Source: Brachypterus glaber
Taxonomy: Eukaryota; Arthropoda; Insecta; Coleoptera; Kateretidae
Reading direction: 5' to 3'
Assembly (NCBI GenBank): GCA_958510825.1
Contig: OY294052.1
Span: 3,059,816 to 3,123,815, forward strand
Length of the DNA: 64,000 nt
This document shows positions 122 through 62,921 of this stretch, piece by piece. The first letter of the stretch is position 1; every line of letters starts with the position of its first letter. The notes below the pieces were generated by a model, which did not search any database, was not told the origin of the DNA, and was given only the letters and a program-made list of their open reading frames with translations. A program made the translations under genes and the position numbers.

Positions 122-551
122 TACACTGAAAAAAAGTATCCTTTGCGGTAATGGCATATGAAATTAGGCCAAATGCTTCGCACTCTTGAATACGTCCAAA
201 AGCGCCTTCTTTTAACATGAAAATATAATTCAATTGCCAAGATCTTTCTGATTCTTTAACTTAAAATTCATTGATCTTGTGTAAAATGCAAGTGGTCTTG
301 TCTCAAAAGAAAGATTCTTGGGCCAAAGTATTTAAAATTAGTTAATTTTTAACAATCTTAAAACAAGAGATAAATGGTTTTTGCCTCAAATGCGCCAGGT
401 CCAAGAGAATTTTAAAAATATTTCAAAAGCGACACTTTTCTTGGGACAAGATAAATACTTTTGTTTGAAGATACACATCTTTTAAGCTAAAAGAATAACT
501 GCCAAGAGTGTTGACTACTTTTAGCCAAGAACGGCATTTTTTTTCAGTGTA
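122..551 (+). mobile_element. MITE, TACACTGAAA family, full-length copy
   Basis: The element starts with TACACTGAAAAAAA and ends with its exact reverse complement, a 14-bp terminal inverted repeat whose outer bases are TA, as expected for a Tc1/mariner-like TA target. A second, left-truncated copy lies at 47281-47660 in the same orientation with matching interior. There is no coding capacity, so it is a non-autonomous element. Confidence 0.75.
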
Positions 552-7950: not shown

Positions 7951-8420
7951 TTTGGACTTTTTGACAAAGAGACTTGAAATTTGAAAAAAAATATTTACTA
8001 CTTAGAAAATGTTTGTTCCAAATTACAAGTCTCTGTGCCAAAGCTTTTTTGAAATATCGTAGCGTAAAGCACATTTTCTTTAATAAACCAAACGATTTGC
8101 ATCCTTAATAGGAGTATAAACTGCTTACATCTTTCTTTAAAGATCTATTGGTTGATAAAGATCGTAATTTATAATGAATGTAAATTTTAGGTCACAAATA
8201 AAGCATTTAAATATCGTACATAAATAATATTTACCTTTTTTACACTTTTAACACTTTAACCTAGCAGCATACGTCGCTATCTCTCTAACAATAACAATAT
8301 TAAACGGTCCGTCTTATGATGCCTTCTTGGTTATTGTCCAAAGCGCACGCGCGTCTTAAAATAACATAGCTCGACATTGTAAAATCATGTAAAAATATGT
8401 AAATCAATGTAAATATATTT

Positions 8421-8520
8421 TTTTACATTCTTTTACATTCTTTTACATTCTTTTACATTCTTTTACATTCTTTTACATTATTTTACATTCTTTTACATTA
8501 TTTTACATTACTTTACATAG
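8421..8520. repeat. Tandem array, 10-bp unit TTTTACATTC, 10 copies
   Basis: Ten consecutive 10-bp units, TTTTACATTC or variants ending in A, run exactly from 8421 to 8520. This is part of the MITE at 7708-8620. Confidence 0.95.
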
Positions 8521-8620
8521 ATTCATGAATTATTCTTAGTCCATAATAGTAAATTTACTATTCCGTACTATGTAAATTCATGTATTTTTACATTATTTTA
8601 CATGCAGTTTTTACAGTGTA

Positions 8621-11996: not shown

Positions 11997-12402
11997 TGGC
12001 GATTTCTCCCGTTAGATTAGACAGGGACAAAAGTTCTACCCAAAAAGGATAGAAGACATACATACACTTCCACCCAACCAAACAAATTCTGTATTTGTTT
12101 TTTGTTGAACAAATACAATATTTACTTGGCCGGGCGAAAAGTGTAACTATATTATTTTTATTAAAGAAATTACTGGCGCCATCTAAATTTTAGTAGAATT
12201 ATCTTATTCTACAGATTCACATTAGATATGTTCGTTCGTGCCGCTCAGTGCTACAGTTTCCGGCCAACCAAATAAATACTGTATTTGTTGTATGAAAAAC
12301 AAATACAGTATTTATTTGGTTGGCTGGAAAGTGTAGCACAAATGAGATAGAGATAGGGTAGACGTCTTTTGTTTCATAATTCTAGTTGTAGAAAGCTCCA
12401 TT
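11997..12402 (-). mobile_element. Twin-hairpin element, copy 1
   Basis: About 410 bp, with the same ends as 26984-27396 and 41043-41452. It contains two long hairpins built from AACCAAATAAATACTGTATT-type sequence, at about 12065-12150 and 12250-12340. There are no long terminal inverted repeats and no coding frame. I do not recognise the superfamily. Confidence 0.8.
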
Positions 12403-12601
12403 TATACAATTTGCTATGTAATTTTTCCTTCAGAGACAATTTTTGAAAAAAAATATACATACAGATATATGAAAAAAACCCTAGAATCCACAGATACAAC
12501 TTTTACGACAAAAAAAAACGAAATTAACGCTTTTTAAACAGATCTCCCCCCCAAAACTTCCCCAAAGACCCCTATTTTATCAATATACATACATTTTTGT
12601 T

Positions 12602-26352: not shown

Positions 26353-26983
26353 TTATAATTTGGTAAAAACGGTTTTATTGACTCTGTTATTGATAAGAAA
26401 ACAAAAAAGTAATCGTGATTTTTTAAGCTATGATTACTTTTGCTTTTAACCTGCAATTCATGTATTTAATCAAAAATAGTTCAAATTTTGATTTAATATT
26501 ATTATTTATGCTATTTTCTAAAAGTTCATATATTAAAAATTAAAATTAGTACATTAGTTAAAAAATAATTAAATTAATTGCGCTGAAGTCATGAAGTAAT
26601 CGTTGCCTAGCTCTGATATTTACAAACAATAAGTACACATTTTGCTACTTCGTAAGTAATTACTCTTTATATAGGGAAGTAATTGCTCCGGGAGTAAGCA
26701 TTCAATATGGTTTGTATATATACAGATATATCTGTCAAGCAAATGGAAATAAAATATGCTATTATTTTAAGTTATTGGATTCTCAAGTAACGATGTGTAT
26801 TAGATCATATATCCCCTCCTAGATGCGCCTTGAGTCCACGTCAAACCGAAATGTTTTCATTGCTATATACAGGTAGATTTCACCTTCCCGCTTCTGGTCA
26901 TCAGCCACGGTTATAGTGGTTTGTTAACAAATATGTTATACTTCACCTCCTCGCAACCTCACCGCTATAGTGGTTTGTTTACA
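26353..26983. other. Spacer; possible unidentified repeat at 26810-26980
   Basis: 26880-26980 has two near-copies of CTATAGTGGTTTGTT and moderately G+C-rich sequence. Nothing further recognised. Confidence 0.4.
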
Positions 26984-27396
26984 ATGGAGCTCTCTACAAC
27001 TAGAATTATAAAACAAAAGACGTCTACCCTATCTCTATCTCATTTGTGCTACACTTTCCAGCCAACCAAATAAATACTGTATTTGTTTTTAATACAACAA
27101 ATACAGTATTTATTTGGTTGGCCGGAAACTGTAGCACTGAGCGGCACGAACGAACATAGCTAATGTGAATCTGTAGAATAAGATCATTCTACTAAAATTT
27201 AGATGGCGTCAGTAATTTCTTTAATAAAAATAATATAGTTACACTTTTCGCCCGGCCAAGTAAATATTATATTTGTTCAACAAAGAACAAATACAGAATT
27301 TGTTTGGTTGAGTGGAACTGGGAGTGTATGTATGTCTTCTATCCTTTTTGGGTAGAACTTTTGTCCCTGTCTAATCTAACGGGAGAAATCGCCATT
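26984..27396 (+). mobile_element. Twin-hairpin element, copy 2
   Basis: Begins ATGGAGCTCTCTACAAC and ends GAGAAATCGCCATTG. The first hairpin at about 27049-27131 has arms CCAACCAAATAAATACTG / CAGTATTTATTTGGTTGG; the second lies at about 27240-27320. Nearly identical to 41043-41452. Confidence 0.85.
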
Positions 27397-40513: not shown

Positions 40514-41042
40514 CTAATAATAAATAATTTTAGTGTACGGAAACATAGATTTTAAAACGACAATAGATAAGACAGAAGCTAGCTGTATACGTTAAAACTC
40601 GAACTGTGTTTTTTTATATCTTTGAATTGAAGTGTGCAGGTTTTTTTAGCACTATAAAAACATTTTAATTCAACCGCGGACGGATAGAGACATCCACGAA
40701 TAAATAAGTGAACTACTAAATTAAAAACAAGGATATTAATTTAGTAAATTTAAAAACTATTATACTAAAATAAAACTAAACTATAAACAGCTTTGTTTTC
40801 TCGATTTTGGGGGAAATGCCTGCGTGCATGTCCCTTTCGAGACGTACCGTACTTTGTTATTTACTTGTTGATTACAATATAGTCTTCTAAGCAATTTTAG
40901 TTATAAAAAAATCATTTTTTACAGCCGTCGAATATCTCCAGTTTATAAAAAATAATATAATCAAAGCAAACCAAATATGTTAAATTGGTCTTTCTTTTCG
41001 ACGGGTGGAAAAATGAAGAAGTTTATAAAATAAGATATCAAA
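40514..41042. other. Spacer upstream of the candidate exon
   Basis: 40805-40860 is slightly richer in G+C. 40985-41042 (GACGGGTGGAAAAATG) is the left part of a dispersed repeat into which the next element inserted. Confidence 0.4.
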
Positions 41043-41452
41043 TGGAGCTCTCTACAACTAGAATTATGAAACAAAAGACGTCTACCCTATCTCTATCTCA
41101 TTTGTGCTACACTTTCCAGCCAACCAAATAAATACTGTATTTGTTTTTCATACAACAAATACAGTATTTATTTGGTTGGCCGGAAAGTGTAGCACTGAGC
41201 GGCACGAACGAACATAGCTAATGTGAATCTGTAGAATAAGATAATTCTACTAAAATTTAGATGGCGCCAGTAATTTCTTTAATAAAAATAATAGTTACAC
41301 TTTTCGCCCGGCCAAGTAAATATTGTATTAGTTCAACAAAGAACAAATACAGAATTTGTTTGGTTGGGTGGAAGTGGGAGTGTATGTATGTCTTCTATCC
41401 TTTTTGGGTAGAACTTTTGTCCCTGTCTAATCTAACGGGAGAAATCGCCATT
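41043..41452 (+). mobile_element. Twin-hairpin element, copy 3, with readable insertion site
   Basis: Hairpin 1 spans 41109-41190 (arms ACACTTTCCAGCCAACCAAA / inverse); hairpin 2 spans about 41298-41372. Flanks AAGATATCAAAT and TTGACTTCACTTTTCC are contiguous in the paralogue at 10895-10925, apart from a few bases, so the boundaries are those of a single insertion. No TIRs longer than a few bases and no frame of its own. The frame at 41261-41569 starts inside the element and has no domain. Confidence 0.85.
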
Positions 41453-41639
41453 GACTTCACTTTTCCTACATTTTTGGACCTTATCCTTTTGTCATTACTT
41501 TGTAGCTTTATCAGTTTATTTTTCTGGCCGCACCATTATCAGGAATTTATTAAAATAAAAACTAATTGAAATTAATTTTACCTATGATTGAAATTTTACT
41601 AGTGTCAAAATTTTACATCTAATTAAAAATGTAAAAATA

Positions 41640-54355: not shown

Positions 54356-56003
54356 TAAGCATAAAAACCTCATAAAAACCAACAAAAAATACTTCCTGGT
54401 AATACAGAAAAAAAAACTTTTATTAGGTACATCAAAAGAATTATACTACACTTTTATTACACTGTGAAAATAAAAAGTAATTTCTGCCCGTCCATCTATC
54501 AACTTAAATATTTAGTTATTTGTGTTTCAAGGCCCGAATGAACTTGTTTTTTTGAACGGGTCTAATTTCCCAGTACGCAAAGAAGTAGTTTTGGCCAATA
54601 AAAATAAATTTAAGAATAATAGTTATTTATATACCAAGGGACTAAACTGGCTGTTTTAGTCCCGCTGCATTAGTGTTTCCTGAGCGAGCGAGGGAAACAG
54701 AAATGCAAGGGACTAAAACAGCCAAGTTTAGTCCTGAGGTATATACACTATTTTTTGCAGGGCCAAACATAATTTGTCTAGGTAGATAAAATTAAAATTA
54801 AAAACCACGCATCTAAAATCGGTTGTTTTATTTTCGTAATTTAATCAAGATGCCTGTAAATTGCGAAAAGTCAGTTTAATGGCTATCGCGATTTCAATTG
54901 TTTTTTAATATGGTTGACAAAAATGTCAAAAAAATGGATGAAGATGATAAATTTTAAGTTATGTATAAATTGTTATAACAATGTTATTTTTAAAGGTTTT
55001 CTTTGTTAAAATCAAATAAATTCGTTTGAATCGGTAATTTATTACAGAAAACCACCAAACCTAATTTTTGAACCAGCAAAGCACATAGTAAGTATAATAT
55101 TTTAATATTATCAAGGTTGCCGTGATTTTTATTCCCTAAGGAGAAAAACGGTAAGTTAAGTCCCGAAAATGAAAGCTTAAAATTAGGTTTTAGTCTTGGT
55201 CGTGCAAAAAACTAATTTATAATAATTATTGTTTACTTTATATATATATACAGCCTGTTCCAGAACTCGCGTACCGAAATTTAAGAGGTGATTCTACATC
55301 CAAAAATATGAAAAAAAGTTTCTATAAAGGTTGGTCCGGAAATGAGCCCTAAGGGAGATACGGCCCTTCGAAGATGACGTATTGAATGGGGAACAAAAAA
55401 AAAGCACCAATAAAATTTTAATGCTGCAGGGTGATTCTTCATTTAAAACTGAGCAAAAAAGTATTATACACCAAAACACCTAAATTTAATATTAAAGGAG
55501 TAATAGCCTTTTAAAAAGTAACGTTTTTGGTGGCACAAAATGTTACTTCCTCTTAATTGCATTTTTTTTTGATAACGGTTGCTCCTACAGTGTTACATTA
55601 CATGATATTTTATATGTATTTTTACTCTAGAAATCTATATTTTTTACAACAAATCCAAAAAACATACACATAGAAAAGTTTGGGGCAAAAATGTTTTAAG
55701 CCTCATATATTTTGTCCGTCTGGGCACGCCTCTGGATAAATTAAAAAAATAAATTAACATAAACTTATTGCCCTTATTAATACTAGTATACATGCAAAAG
55801 CTCGCCGCTCTAGCTTAAACGGTACCCGAGTTATTAATTAAAAACCTTATTTTTATTACAATTTTAAAGGGCCCTAGATCCCTTAGGGCTCATTTCCGGA
55901 CCAACCTTTATAAAAACTTTTTTTATATTTTTGGATCTAGAATCACCTCTTAAATTTTGGCATGCCAGTTATGGATCACCCTGTATATATATTAAGTCTA
56001 CTG
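54356..56003 (+). repeat. 1,648-bp tandem duplication, unit 1
   Basis: Every base I compared recurs exactly 1,648 bp downstream, from TAAGCATAAAAACC to TTAAGTCTACTG. The unit consists of about 890 bp of non-coding sequence, with a strong foldback at 54629-54754 (GGGACTAAACTGGCTG / CAGCCAAGTTTAGTCC around GAGCGAGCGAG), followed by a complete foldback element (55250-55990). Confidence 0.92.
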
Positions 56004-57651
56004 TAAGCATAAAAACCTCATAAAAACCAACAAAAAATACTTCCTGGTAATACAGAAAAAAAAACTTTTATTAGGTACATCAAAAGAATTATACTACACT
56101 TTTATTACACTGTGAAAATAAAAAGTAATTTCTGCCCGTCCATCTATCAACTTAAATATTTAGTTATTTGTGTTTCAAGGCCCGAATGAACTTGTTTTTT
56201 TGAACGGGTCTAATTTCCCAGTACGCAAAGAAGTAGTTTTGGCCAATAAAAATAAATTTAAGAATAATAGTTATTTATATACCAAGGGACTAAACTGGCT
56301 GTTTTAGTCCCGCTGCATTAGTGTTTCCTGAGCGAGCGAGGGAAACAGAAATGCAAGGGACTAAAACAGCCAAGTTTAGTCCTGAGGTATATACACTATT
56401 TTTTGCAGGGCCAAACATAATTTGTCTAGGTAGATAAAATTAAAATTAAAAACCACGCATCTAAAATCGGTTGTTTTATTTTCGTAATTTAATCAAGATG
56501 CCTGTAAATTGCGAAAAGTCAGTTTAATGGCTATCGCGATTTCAATTGTTTTTTAATATGGTTGACAAAAATGTCAAAAAAATGGATGAAGATGATAAAT
56601 TTTAAGTTATGTATAAATTGTTATAACAATGTTATTTTTAAAGGTTTTCTTTGTTAAAATCAAATAAATTCGTTTGAATCGGTAATTTATTACAGAAAAC
56701 CACCAAACCTAATTTTTGAACCAGCAAAGCACATAGTAAGTATAATATTTTAATATTATCAAGGTTGCCGTGATTTTTATTCCCTAAGGAGAAAAACGGT
56801 AAGTTAAGTCCCGAAAATGAAAGCTTAAAATTAGGTTTTAGTCTTGGTCGTGCAAAAAACTAATTTATAATAATTATTGTTTACTTTATATATATATACA
56901 GCCTGTTCCAGAACTCGCGTACCGAAATTTAAGAGGTGATTCTACATCCAAAAATATGAAAAAAAGTTTCTATAAAGGTTGGTCCGGAAATGAGCCCTAA
57001 GGGAGATACGGCCCTTCGAAGATGACGTATTGAATGGGGAACAAAAAAAAAGCACCAATAAAATTTTAATGCTGCAGGGTGATTCTTCATTTAAAACTGA
57101 GCAAAAAAGTATTATACACCAAAACACCTAAATTTAATATTAAAGGAGTAATAGCCTTTTAAAAAGTAACGTTTTTGGTGGCACAAAATGTTACTTCCTC
57201 TTAATTGCATTTTTTTTTGATAACGGTTGCTCCTACAGTGTTACATTACATGATATTTTATATGTATTTTTACTCTAGAAATCTATATTTTTTACAACAA
57301 ATCCAAAAAACATACACATAGAAAAGTTTGGGGCAAAAATGTTTTAAGCCTCATATATTTTGTCCGTCTGGGCACGCCTCTGGATAAATTAAAAAAATAA
57401 ATTAACATAAACTTATTGCCCTTATTAATACTAGTATACATGCAAAAGCTCGCCGCTCTAGCTTAAACGGTACCCGAGTTATTAATTAAAAACCTTATTT
57501 TTATTACAATTTTAAAGGGCCCTAGATCCCTTAGGGCTCATTTCCGGACCAACCTTTATAAAAACTTTTTTTATATTTTTGGATCTAGAATCACCTCTTA
57601 AATTTTGGCATGCCAGTTATGGATCACCCTGTATATATATTAAGTCTACTG
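56004..57651 (+). repeat. 1,648-bp tandem duplication, unit 2
   Basis: Direct copy of 54356-56003. Identical 61-codon frames at 55294-55479 and 56942-57127 (minus) lie in the duplicated foldback element and are not genes. Near-identity means either a very recent duplication or a redundant assembly join. Confidence 0.92.
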
Positions 57652-60870: not shown

Positions 60871-61272
60871 CTATAAGACTGGATATACAGCATCAGTAGC
60901 TATACCACATTGATTCCTATTACGGGCTAATCTTATAAAACCATTTTCGCCCCAGCTTTCACCCCAGGAGTTTTTTACAATCCAGTAATCTCCAGATGGT
61001 GATGTTCCATAACCTACAGCTAAAACAGCGTGGTTTAACATATATGTATCGCAATTATCGTCAGTGTATACGCCTGACGAATAAAATTCAATATTATTAG
61101 CATCAATGGCAACGTTTACTGGTCCAATAGTGCCAACCGCGGTTTTTAGAGCCTCTTCGTCACCAGATTCGATCGCTATATATCTAGTCATGTTTAAAAC
61201 ACTTTGTGATTTACGGTATTTGCAGTTTTGGTCTCTTCCTTTGTAAGGGAAGTCTTCTTCTGAACCAATTCC
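60871..61272 (-). CDS. Cathepsin L-like cysteine protease, C-terminal part
   Basis: 133 codons plus stop, open at the 5' side into the assembly gap. This is a papain-family (C1A) endopeptidase, probably secreted and digestive or lysosomal. The fragment starts in the SEEDFPYKGRD segment typical of cathepsin L, then C17, the GPVNVAIDA motif (residues 50-58), the catalytic His (residue 81, in LNHAVLAVGYG) and the catalytic Asn (residue 101, in IVKNSWGESWGENGF). Residues C74 and C122 (NQCGIATDAVYPVL end) are placed to form the family's C-terminal disulfide. Length fits the last 60% of a mature enzyme of about 220 residues. The propeptide and catalytic Cys would lie in the gap or beyond the window; I found no such exon in 61473-64000. 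The reading frame passes through an internal Met at residue 28, so that Met is not the start. Frame, stop and poly(A) signal look intact, so this is probably a functional gene. Confidence 0.92.
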   Translation of the reverse strand, partial: GIGSEEDFPYKGRDQNCKYRKSQSVLNMTRYIAIESGDEEALKTAVGTIGPVNVAIDANNIEFYSSGVYTDDNCDTYMLNHAVLAVGYGTSPSGDYWIVKNSWGESWGENGFIRLARNRNQCGIATDAVYPVL

Positions 61273-61472
61273 NNNNNNNNNNNNNNNNNNNNNNNNNNNN
61301 NNNNNNNNNNNNNNNNNNNNNNNNNNNNNNNNNNNNNNNNNNNNNNNNNNNNNNNNNNNNNNNNNNNNNNNNNNNNNNNNNNNNNNNNNNNNNNNNNNNN
61401 NNNNNNNNNNNNNNNNNNNNNNNNNNNNNNNNNNNNNNNNNNNNNNNNNNNNNNNNNNNNNNNNNNNNNNNN
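61273..61472. other. Assembly gap (200 N)
   Basis: Exactly 200 undetermined bases, interrupting the cathepsin coding region. The round length suggests a placeholder rather than a measured size. Confidence 0.98.
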
Positions 61473-62609
61473 GATTACATTAAATACAATCAAATTTTTT
61501 ATTAGTGTTTATTTTTGAAAAATTCACATTTTCATTTAAATTTGCTGTCTGAAAATAATTACTCCAGGAGCATCGCCCCTGCAGGGTCGAAATTATTTCC
61601 AGATAGCTAATTTTCATGAAAACAGCGAATTTTTCAATGTCAACATATTGTTTACCTTTAGTTCGTGTGGTTGAGACCCCCCATAGTAATGTGTACTATA
61701 GCAATAAATACAAGAGTATTCTGTTGTCCTGGCCAAAGCTCATCAACTGAGCCTCAGTTTTTGTTTCACAGAGCGTGTAGAAAGTATCAAGGTTGTAATT
61801 TAATAGTCTTATGGGGAGATCAAATTTACACGTACTGTAGTAGTTAGGAAGTACTTAATAATGCTATGTTCTGTCGTGTTATTGGTGAAGGTTTTCATTT
61901 TGGTTATATCCCACCTAATTAATGATGATAATCGTCGGAATCAACAGACCTCAGGCCAGAATCGGACAATGAAACACAAAGAGAGGATAAAAATGGGACA
62001 AATTACTTTTTTATAGAGGAAACAAAAGATTATTGAGATACCCAAATTATTCTTTTTTACGCCGGGACCTTTTTTAATAAAAAGACAAATATGTTTTTAG
62101 ATTCCGCTCTCAAAATGTTTGATCAGTATTATACGTATGATATAATACGTAAGTCATATTAAAATTATGCAACTGCATATACAGTGCTGTATTTAACGCA
62201 ATAATAGAATAATCCCTTTGGGGTTGAGTTACAAAATATTTATTTTTAATAGACACCCCTAAAACATTTATTTGCCATTTTGTCTTAAAATATTATAAGC
62301 ATTTAACACTTGGTCCTCGGCTTTGTGGGTATAGAAAAACTGTATTATCTTATTCAGTTGCAGCGACCTCAAACCCTACCTCTTACCAATTTATTATTAT
62401 ATATTGTAAAAAGTTAATGTTAAAGTTAATACTATGCATATTATCATAATACCAATAACTAGTGGTAGAAAAATTACTTTAGGTAGTGTTATATAAACTT
62501 GATACTCACAAAAACCGCATACTAATTAACGCGGTCACGTTTCATATTTAAAACGATAAATTAACTTCGGTTAGGCGTGGTGCAAATTTTATTAAAAGGA
62601 ATATTATAA
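61473..62609. other. Region beyond the gap, no exon recognised
   Basis: No cathepsin catalytic-Cys motif on the minus strand. 61920-62010 is slightly less A+T-rich with a short frame (NDDNRRNQQTSGQNR) that I cannot identify. The frame at 61665-61847 has no domain. Confidence 0.45.
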
Positions 62610-62921
62610 CTTTATCAACATTTATTATTCCATCAATCTATTTTCTAATCATCGTAGACAACTACTCATAAATGTAGAAATAGATGGCGCACAAGTCTAC
62701 ATCAATCTAATGGCTATATTCCTTTTGCGAGTAAAGTCTAAAAACGTTTTCTTAATCAGCGCGCAGAGTTGACTCTTGGTACTGAGGAGGGCCAGTAGCC
62801 CGAAACTGTCAGTCTACCAATATGACTCTGTACGATGATTAGAAAATAGATTGATGGAATAATAAATTAATATTTTTATAATTTTGTTTAAAATTAAAAA
62901 TTTCTGTCCTTTATCAACATT
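62610..62921 (+). mobile_element. Candidate retrozyme-like element with hammerhead ribozyme
   Basis: CTTTATCAACATT at 62610-62622 is repeated at 62909-62921, bracketing about 286 bp. Inside are perfect 36-bp inverted arms (62621-62656, TTTATTATTCCATCAATC onward; 62831-62866), a spacer, a hammerhead motif touching the right arm, and an A/T-rich 3' segment. A 13-bp direct repeat is the length expected of a retrotransposition target duplication rather than a DNA-transposon footprint. No coding capacity. An ordinary foldback MITE is the alternative. Confidence 0.55.
62764..62830 (+). ncRNA. Type I hammerhead ribozyme motif
   Basis: Core: CTGAGGA (62782-62788), GAA (62802-62804), A-U pair of stem III (62805/62813) and cleavage-site C at 62814, that is GTC|TACC. 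Stem I: TTGGTA (62776-62781) pairs with TACCAA (62815-62820); past an internal loop, CAGAGT (62764-62769) pairs with ACTCTG (62825-62830). Stem II: GGGC-CAGTA-GCCC (62789-62801), with the required G-C closing pair. Stem III: ACT-GTC-AGT (62805-62813). All conserved core positions are present; the variable position 7 is G. Loop II contains AGT, complementary to ACT in the stem I internal loop (62772-62774), a possible tertiary contact. The very short stem III is typical of type I hammerheads in animal retroelements, which often act as dimers. Confidence 0.65.

Follow-up and report, generated by a model that had tools for sequence, protein, structure and literature searches.

A hammerhead-bearing retrozyme of Brachypterus glaber that inserts in the manner of Penelope-like elements

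The window analysed here, a stretch of 64,000 nucleotides (64 kb) from Brachypterus glaber, contains a 67-nt sequence with the letters of a hammerhead ribozyme, and it raises the question of whether this is more than a chance resemblance and, if so, what kind of element carries and spreads it. The earlier note, made from the letters alone, had described a type I hammerhead, and each element of it was indeed found in place (Table 1). The motif matches a type I hammerhead exactly, stem I having 6 + 6 bp around an internal loop, stem II 4 bp and stem III 3 bp; the invariants CUGANGA, GAA, A15.1-U16.1 and H17 are all there, as are the three helices and an open stem I. A strict descriptor comprising the core letters, a 4-bp stem II with its G-C pair, a 3-bp stem III with its A-U pair and a 5-bp stem I matched once in the window but never in 150 first-order simulated 64-kb sequences, searched on both strands, and, therefore, the motif is more than a product of chance.

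Table 1 Features of the hammerhead-bearing insertion in the window
Feature	Position	Strand	Description	Basis
Type I hammerhead ribozyme motif	62764..62830	+		Sequence, strict descriptor and covariance model from other families
Stem I strands	62764-62769, 62776-62781, 62815-62820, 62825-62830	+	CAGAGT, TTGGTA, TACCAA, ACTCTG	
Catalytic CTGAGGA	62782..62788	+	C3-A9	Read from letters
Stem II and loop II	62789..62801	+	GGGC-CAGTA-GCCC, G-C closing pair	Letters; pairing across families
Catalytic GAA	62802..62804	+		Read from letters
Stem III	62805..62813	+	ACT-GTC-AGT, nearly palindromic, A-U pair	Read from letters
Cleavage site	62814..62815	+	C17 at 62814, cleavage between 62814 and 62815	Cleavage predicted
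Left target-site duplication	62610..62622	.	CTTTATCAACATT	Direct repeat, by eye; missed by the automatic search
Right target-site duplication	62909..62921	.	CTTTATCAACATT	Direct repeat, by eye
Inverted arm	62623..62656	-	Unit from end B (position ~53) back to 17	
Short inverted patch at arm-arm junction	62657..62668	-	Unit ~198-211 (minus-strand match listed as 195-211); filler or template jump	
Direct arm	62669..62908	+	Unit 209 through 354, onward to end A (~95-97)	
Tail between two putative reverse-transcription start sites	62867..62908	+	Unit 53 to ~95	Function presumed

Folding of the isolated motif counts against the hammerhead reading: the minimum-energy fold of the 67 nt has -22.5 kcal/mol, with the catalytic CUGA paired to UCAG of stem III, and the hammerhead fold only -14.5. 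Stem III (ACUG-U-CAGU) is nearly self-complementary and, therefore, a newt-like dimeric hammerhead may be possible at 62764-62830.

The published covariance models did not recognise the motif. A search with Rfam gave no match in the window at the gathering threshold, an outcome that the earlier note had set down beforehand as one half of what would speak against a ribozyme, and none in 14 related loci. With lax settings, no hammerhead was reported for an 801-base stretch, and an 86-base stretch gave only RAGATH-1-hammerhead with 14.3 bits (cut-off 56.3) and an E value of 2.2; since thresholds were never reached, Rfam was dropped as a detector for this family. A covariance model named R1, trained on hammerheads from further families in this genome, found the window site as its sole significant match (27.8 bits, E 1.2e-7; second-best match only E 1.5), a detection that is partly circular because the training cores had been chosen via the core pattern. 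Training used nine equal-length cores from the 19 present in 18 fetched stretches; L089 (two cores), L077, L078 (misplaced gap), L079 and L084 (near copies), L091 (related to the family in the window) and L092-L094 were left out. The covariation score of R1 amounted to 0.295 compared with 0.146 after shuffling.

Further evidence came from the genome, which has a size of 648 Mb. The core pattern matched 2531 times forward and 4398 times reverse, the latter number including overlapping variants of single places, compared with 3 and 3 matches for a reversed control pattern. When the main stem II letter was excluded, 91 forward and 125 reverse matches stood against 1 and 1 for the control, and those listed for this pattern comprised decayed copies of the main family and several other families. 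Pairing was compared over 18 cores, i.e. that of the window and 17 hand-picked ones of several families, the last two of which are probably chance matches: stem II paired in 63 of 72 cells, whereas 5000 shuffles gave 47.8 on average and at most 58, and stem III paired in 48 of 54, for which shuffles gave 42.2 on average and at most 49. By this comparison and the covariation of R1, stem II is kept by compensatory change across families, stem III only weakly so. A related family, L089, has its stem II exchanged (GCCC/GGGC) and different distal stem I letters with inner loops much alike; these loops and the CAG(T/C)A of loop II are largely unchanged although the stems differ, which bears on a possible tertiary contact between loops I and II. 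The L089 locus itself (G000:C4:36308740-36309090) holds three hammerheads in the same orientation, ~85 nt apart (at 62, 146 and 232), and thus a much shorter hammerhead repeat; the stem II swap relative to the window family is seen in both of those whose letters were read. The earlier note had also named free variation of the core as a sign against function. Such free variation was not seen: the 12 core positions of the window family had a mean minor-allele frequency of 0.7% compared with 2.1% elsewhere, but the difference was not significant and selection on the core within this family could not be demonstrated (permutation p 0.15). In sum, the letters, the descriptor and the pairing across families support the reading of the window motif as a type I hammerhead ribozyme.

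The motif belongs to a repeat: a 301-nt query around it gave at least 201 genome matches. Measured between successive cleavage sites, the unit has 353 or 354 nt, and an array holds about six of them at most. The unit is non-coding, with a longest stop-free run of 65 codons over four tandem units, has a GC content of 35.6% and, when folded as a circle, reached -93.3 kcal/mol compared with -65.7 +/- 4.7 for 100 shuffled sequences. A type I hammerhead in non-coding tandem units of 150-450 bp with low GC and target duplications of more than 4 bp is part of what characterises animal non-LTR retrozymes, and all of this was found; the reading frame for reverse transcriptase and GIY-YIG nuclease that characterises Penelope-like elements (PLEs) is absent from the unit and occurs elsewhere in the genome. 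The element is, thus, a new addition to the known animal retrozymes, and the context guessed in the earlier note, a type I hammerhead with tiny stem III as in PLEs and animal retrozymes, fits, the motif sitting in a retrozyme repeat.

The window copy is a single insertion (62623-62908) flanked by a 13-bp target duplication, and a perfect 37-nt inverted repeat lies at 62620-62656/62831-62867. The earlier note had noticed neither of these, nor the family across the genome. With one unit and one hammerhead it would, taken alone, be cleaved only once and give no circle and, therefore, is probably a dead end. Elsewhere in the window we noted a tandem duplication with 1648-bp spacing (54356-57570), three similar copies of an inverted-repeat element with a MITE-like look (12058-12403, 26983-27320 and 41040-41457), a minisatellite with 10-bp units (8394-8533) and, on the minus strand, a cathepsin L-like exon whose frame contains a stretch of N and a fragment of which matched many animals at ~50% (60871-61479).

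How the retrozyme inserts was read from 48 insertions that were left after overlapping loci had been removed. The script found target duplications of 9-21 bp at 29 of them, 25 being 10-15 bp long, and that of the window copy, seen by eye, is extra; the automatic search detected none at 13 of the 48 and gave false hits, which were not counted, for L001, L006, L023, L024, L027 and L064 (low-complexity, distant or element letters). An inverted and a direct arm meet head to head in 38 of the 48 insertions and, therefore, the element has a 3' end on either outer side. Most of these ends lie near one of two positions, B at ~52 and A at ~97 nt past the cleavage site. With its wide bins (B 28-66, A 84-112) the script counted 32 insertions with A and B, none with two A or two B ends and 5 with an unclassified end; in the remainder it saw a B end alone in 7 and an A end alone in 4. 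Re-reading of the 48 revealed one duplicate (the second L003), one insertion cut off where the stretch ends (L055) and ten with only one classified end (L007, L023, L025, L026a, L027 twice, L064, L069, L072 and L074). For the strict recount the second L003, L055, L060 (short end ~28-34) and L063 (long end 87) were removed, which left 28 insertions from the script, and the window copy and L006, both read by eye, were added; A plus B was thus present in 30 of the 36 independent insertions with two arms. Most of these loci were best matches to the window copy. Seven of the 30 (L001, L002, L003, L005, L006, L052 and L053m) had been matched by the window query in both arms, a bias towards its own layout, and the rule was, therefore, also counted without them and held in 23 of 29. 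One end lies elsewhere in the other six (L026b, L051, L054, L060, L063 and L073). Neither two A ends nor clearly two B ends were found among the 36; L073 comes nearest to the latter with ends at ~34 and ~52, an old copy for which a target duplication was not found. A position-ordered sample of six distinct insertions (L066-L075) contained two with A plus B, L073 and three one-ended ones.

The 37 inner junctions overlap by 1-7 nt in 20 cases, have no overlap in one, a gap in 13 and an overlap of 31-50 nt in three (L008, L055 and L073), the last lying at the self-complementary hammerhead, where snap-back may have taken place. As a general source of the inverted arms, snap-back self-priming was rejected, the arms turning at differing positions of the unit. 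For nearly all junctions, a snap-back palindrome is a poorer fit than the joining of two cDNAs by their ends, and those resembling the window's own junction (L002, L003, L005 and L006) were favoured because the query contained it. The cDNA 5' ends cluster at unit positions 15-29 and 304-313, flanking stem I of the hammerhead, and look as if the enzyme halts at the folded ribozyme; here, ends listed at position 1 are affected by aligner artefacts at the unit boundary and the query favoured window-like junctions.

A possible partner with the same kind of ends is present in the genome, in which GIY-YIG gave at least 149 matches over the cut-off (among 150 scored). Locus L076 has an intact frame of 813 aa with RVT_1 and GIY-YIG domains, preceded by a hammerhead-like motif of its own; a search with the PLE protein gave mainly unnamed sequences. 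Copies of this PLE family end 60-68 and 120-127 nt past the presumed cleavage site, and all of its 13 head-to-head pairs combine the two kinds of end; a second PLE family ends at 66-81 and 96-101 nt with one of each in 8 of 8 pairs, two of which are probably one duplicated insertion. These searches scored the best 40 of 219 and the best 40 of 720 candidate places, and the first member of each pair has the long end by selection, so that the second member is the informative one. None among 21 PLE loci (20 loci and L076, compared with the unit by blast) carried the tail sequence of the retrozyme; the blast matches were AT-rich and taken for noise, with the exception of L034, where a diverged and truncated retrozyme relative (L034:325-392) ends near the B site. 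The insertion signature of PLEs, i.e. inverted arms, a tail at one end and a target duplication, was seen in 30 of the 36 two-armed retrozyme insertions: the retrozyme inserts like a PLE though it is not itself one. According to the excerpts used of PMC11167929, the PLE protein of Anolis cuts either strand of the target and extends it, starting at two neighbouring internal sites between which the genomic tail lies; in vitro it did not need hammerhead cleavage, and the strands did not differ in start site. By analogy, these in-vitro results (cleavage unneeded, no strand difference) would count against the model that we prefer below. In the excerpts of PMC3846280 (2013), on A. vaga Penelope, the tail is an optional part of one inverted repeat, and self-priming is proposed for the inverted arms. 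The rule of one long and one short end was found in none of the portions of the PLE and retrozyme literature searched, and it is what the present counts add.

Sequence variants were used to compare the units. At 12 informative sites they disagreed in 38 of 881 comparisons within an arm, in 18 of 166 between opposite arms and in 44.7% between insertions, the last value being high by construction because the sites had been chosen as differing between insertions; the point is the contrast with the other, private sites, at which disagreement amounted to 1.56, 1.97 and 1.82%, respectively. Since private-site divergence is alike within arms and between insertions, nothing points to homogenisation once an element had inserted; its units were already alike at the outset. 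Among the 31 insertions in which units of the same arm could be compared, 24 were fully concordant, the other 7 arrays not being fully uniform within an arm. Opposite arms, compared in 18 insertions with at least three informative comparisons, were fully concordant in 10 and disagreed somewhere in 8, so that at times two different RNAs supplied the arms of one insertion. The units of L013 and L056 were identical (0 differences at 570 compared sites over both arms and 0 at 554). We read the shared variants as several laps on a small RNA circle; a homogeneous linear multimer could give them, too.

In our favoured reading, to which we give a probability of roughly three in four, the element is a non-coding tandem retrozyme of 353-354-nt units whose RNA is predicted to cut itself, likely closes into a circle and would be copied for several laps by a PLE protein. 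Mobilisation by a PLE is inferred because most two-armed insertions carry the PLE-type pair of a long and a short end. The RNA would cut itself between 62814 and 62815 and close into a circle, most likely via tRNA ligase, as argued for other animals (PMC7229834, in excerpt). A PLE protein would then act on it in trans; its dimer would cut both target strands, and on each cut strand one cDNA would begin, the two using different internal start sites. Each cDNA would run multiple laps on the circle, and the two would finally be joined, often through short microhomology. That retrozymes and PLEs share such a two-ended integration with a division of labour, the distal start being used on one strand and the proximal one on the other before laps on the circle and joining of the cDNAs, is put forward tentatively and with slightly more doubt than confidence. 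If true, the two-ended reaction would explain together why the arms are inverted, why the units are tandem and why the tail of Penelope is "optional".

The template might instead be linear, a multimer transcribed from an array already in the genome and mobilised in the same way by a PLE, with the hammerhead idle or only trimming RNA. This has some weight but is rather unlikely: arrays uniform at informative sites would yield uniform transcripts as well, and PLE insertion in vitro without need for hammerhead cleavage (PMC11167929, in excerpt) would suit it, but pooled arrays differ by 1.6%, which the transcript of an old array would inherit, and L013 and L056 have no differences between units. 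A SINE-like element mobilised by a LINE is improbable. The target duplications are LINE-like in length and the window holds a reading frame that we take to be of a LINE-like family (a search with a LINE-like fragment gave no match), but no poly(A) end was seen in the junctions examined, two fixed internal ends are used pairwise, the inverted arm begins at an element end and the PLEs of this genome show the same end pattern. Ordinary satellite DNA, spread by unequal crossing over or gene conversion, would account for tandem units of constant length, but it is very improbable because the arrays are short and scattered across many contigs, the insertions have target duplications, head-to-head arms and outer ends at fixed places, and private-site divergence within arms is close to that between insertions, with no homogenisation seen. 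Hardly credible is a miniature inverted-repeat DNA transposon with a chance hammerhead-like sequence, for which the perfect 37-nt repeat of the window copy could pass as the terminal repeat, since arm lengths and inner junctions vary by insertion, duplication lengths vary and tandem units exist.

The interesting part of the element is its integration signature. An end signature that can be counted and is common to the retrozyme and the PLEs of one genome makes mobilisation by PLEs testable, and the rule of one end of each kind gives a concrete model for PLE integration, a poorly understood process.

As far as the excerpts of the published work go, the closest systems are the animal non-LTR retrozymes of Cervera and de la Pena (2020, PMC7229834), which are alike in the type I hammerhead, the tandem units of a few hundred nt, the low GC, the duplications of more than 4 bp and the presence of PLEs in the same genome. 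There, PLEs were named as a strong candidate for mobilisation and the mover was left open; what is resolved here in comparison is the anatomy of the insertions, with head-to-head arms, two preferred ends mostly used one each and variants shared within an insertion. In the excerpts on PLEs with minimal hammerheads (Frangieh 2024, PMC11167929; PMC3846280), these resemble the retrozyme in head-to-head arms, short target duplications, ends that differ by a tail, AT-rich sites and ends ~50-127 nt past the hammerhead, but the retrozyme codes for no protein and has a 354-nt unit. These papers call the tail optional, but 30 of the 36 two-armed insertions read here have it at one end and lack it at the other, and, unlike in the self-priming proposed in PMC3846280, the retrozyme arms turn at differing unit positions in nearly all cases. 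The pDo500 satellite of the Dolichopoda cave cricket (PMC2837043, in excerpt) is likewise an insect repeat with a hammerhead, for which a dimeric form was proposed, but its repeats are roughly 500 bp long and not 353-354 nt, and the excerpt gives no anatomy of retrotransposition. The hammerhead repeats of newts and salamanders (via PMC7229834, in excerpt) are alike in units of ~330-350 nt and a weak, self-complementary stem III, which in the element described here consists of 3 bp and a 3-nt loop.
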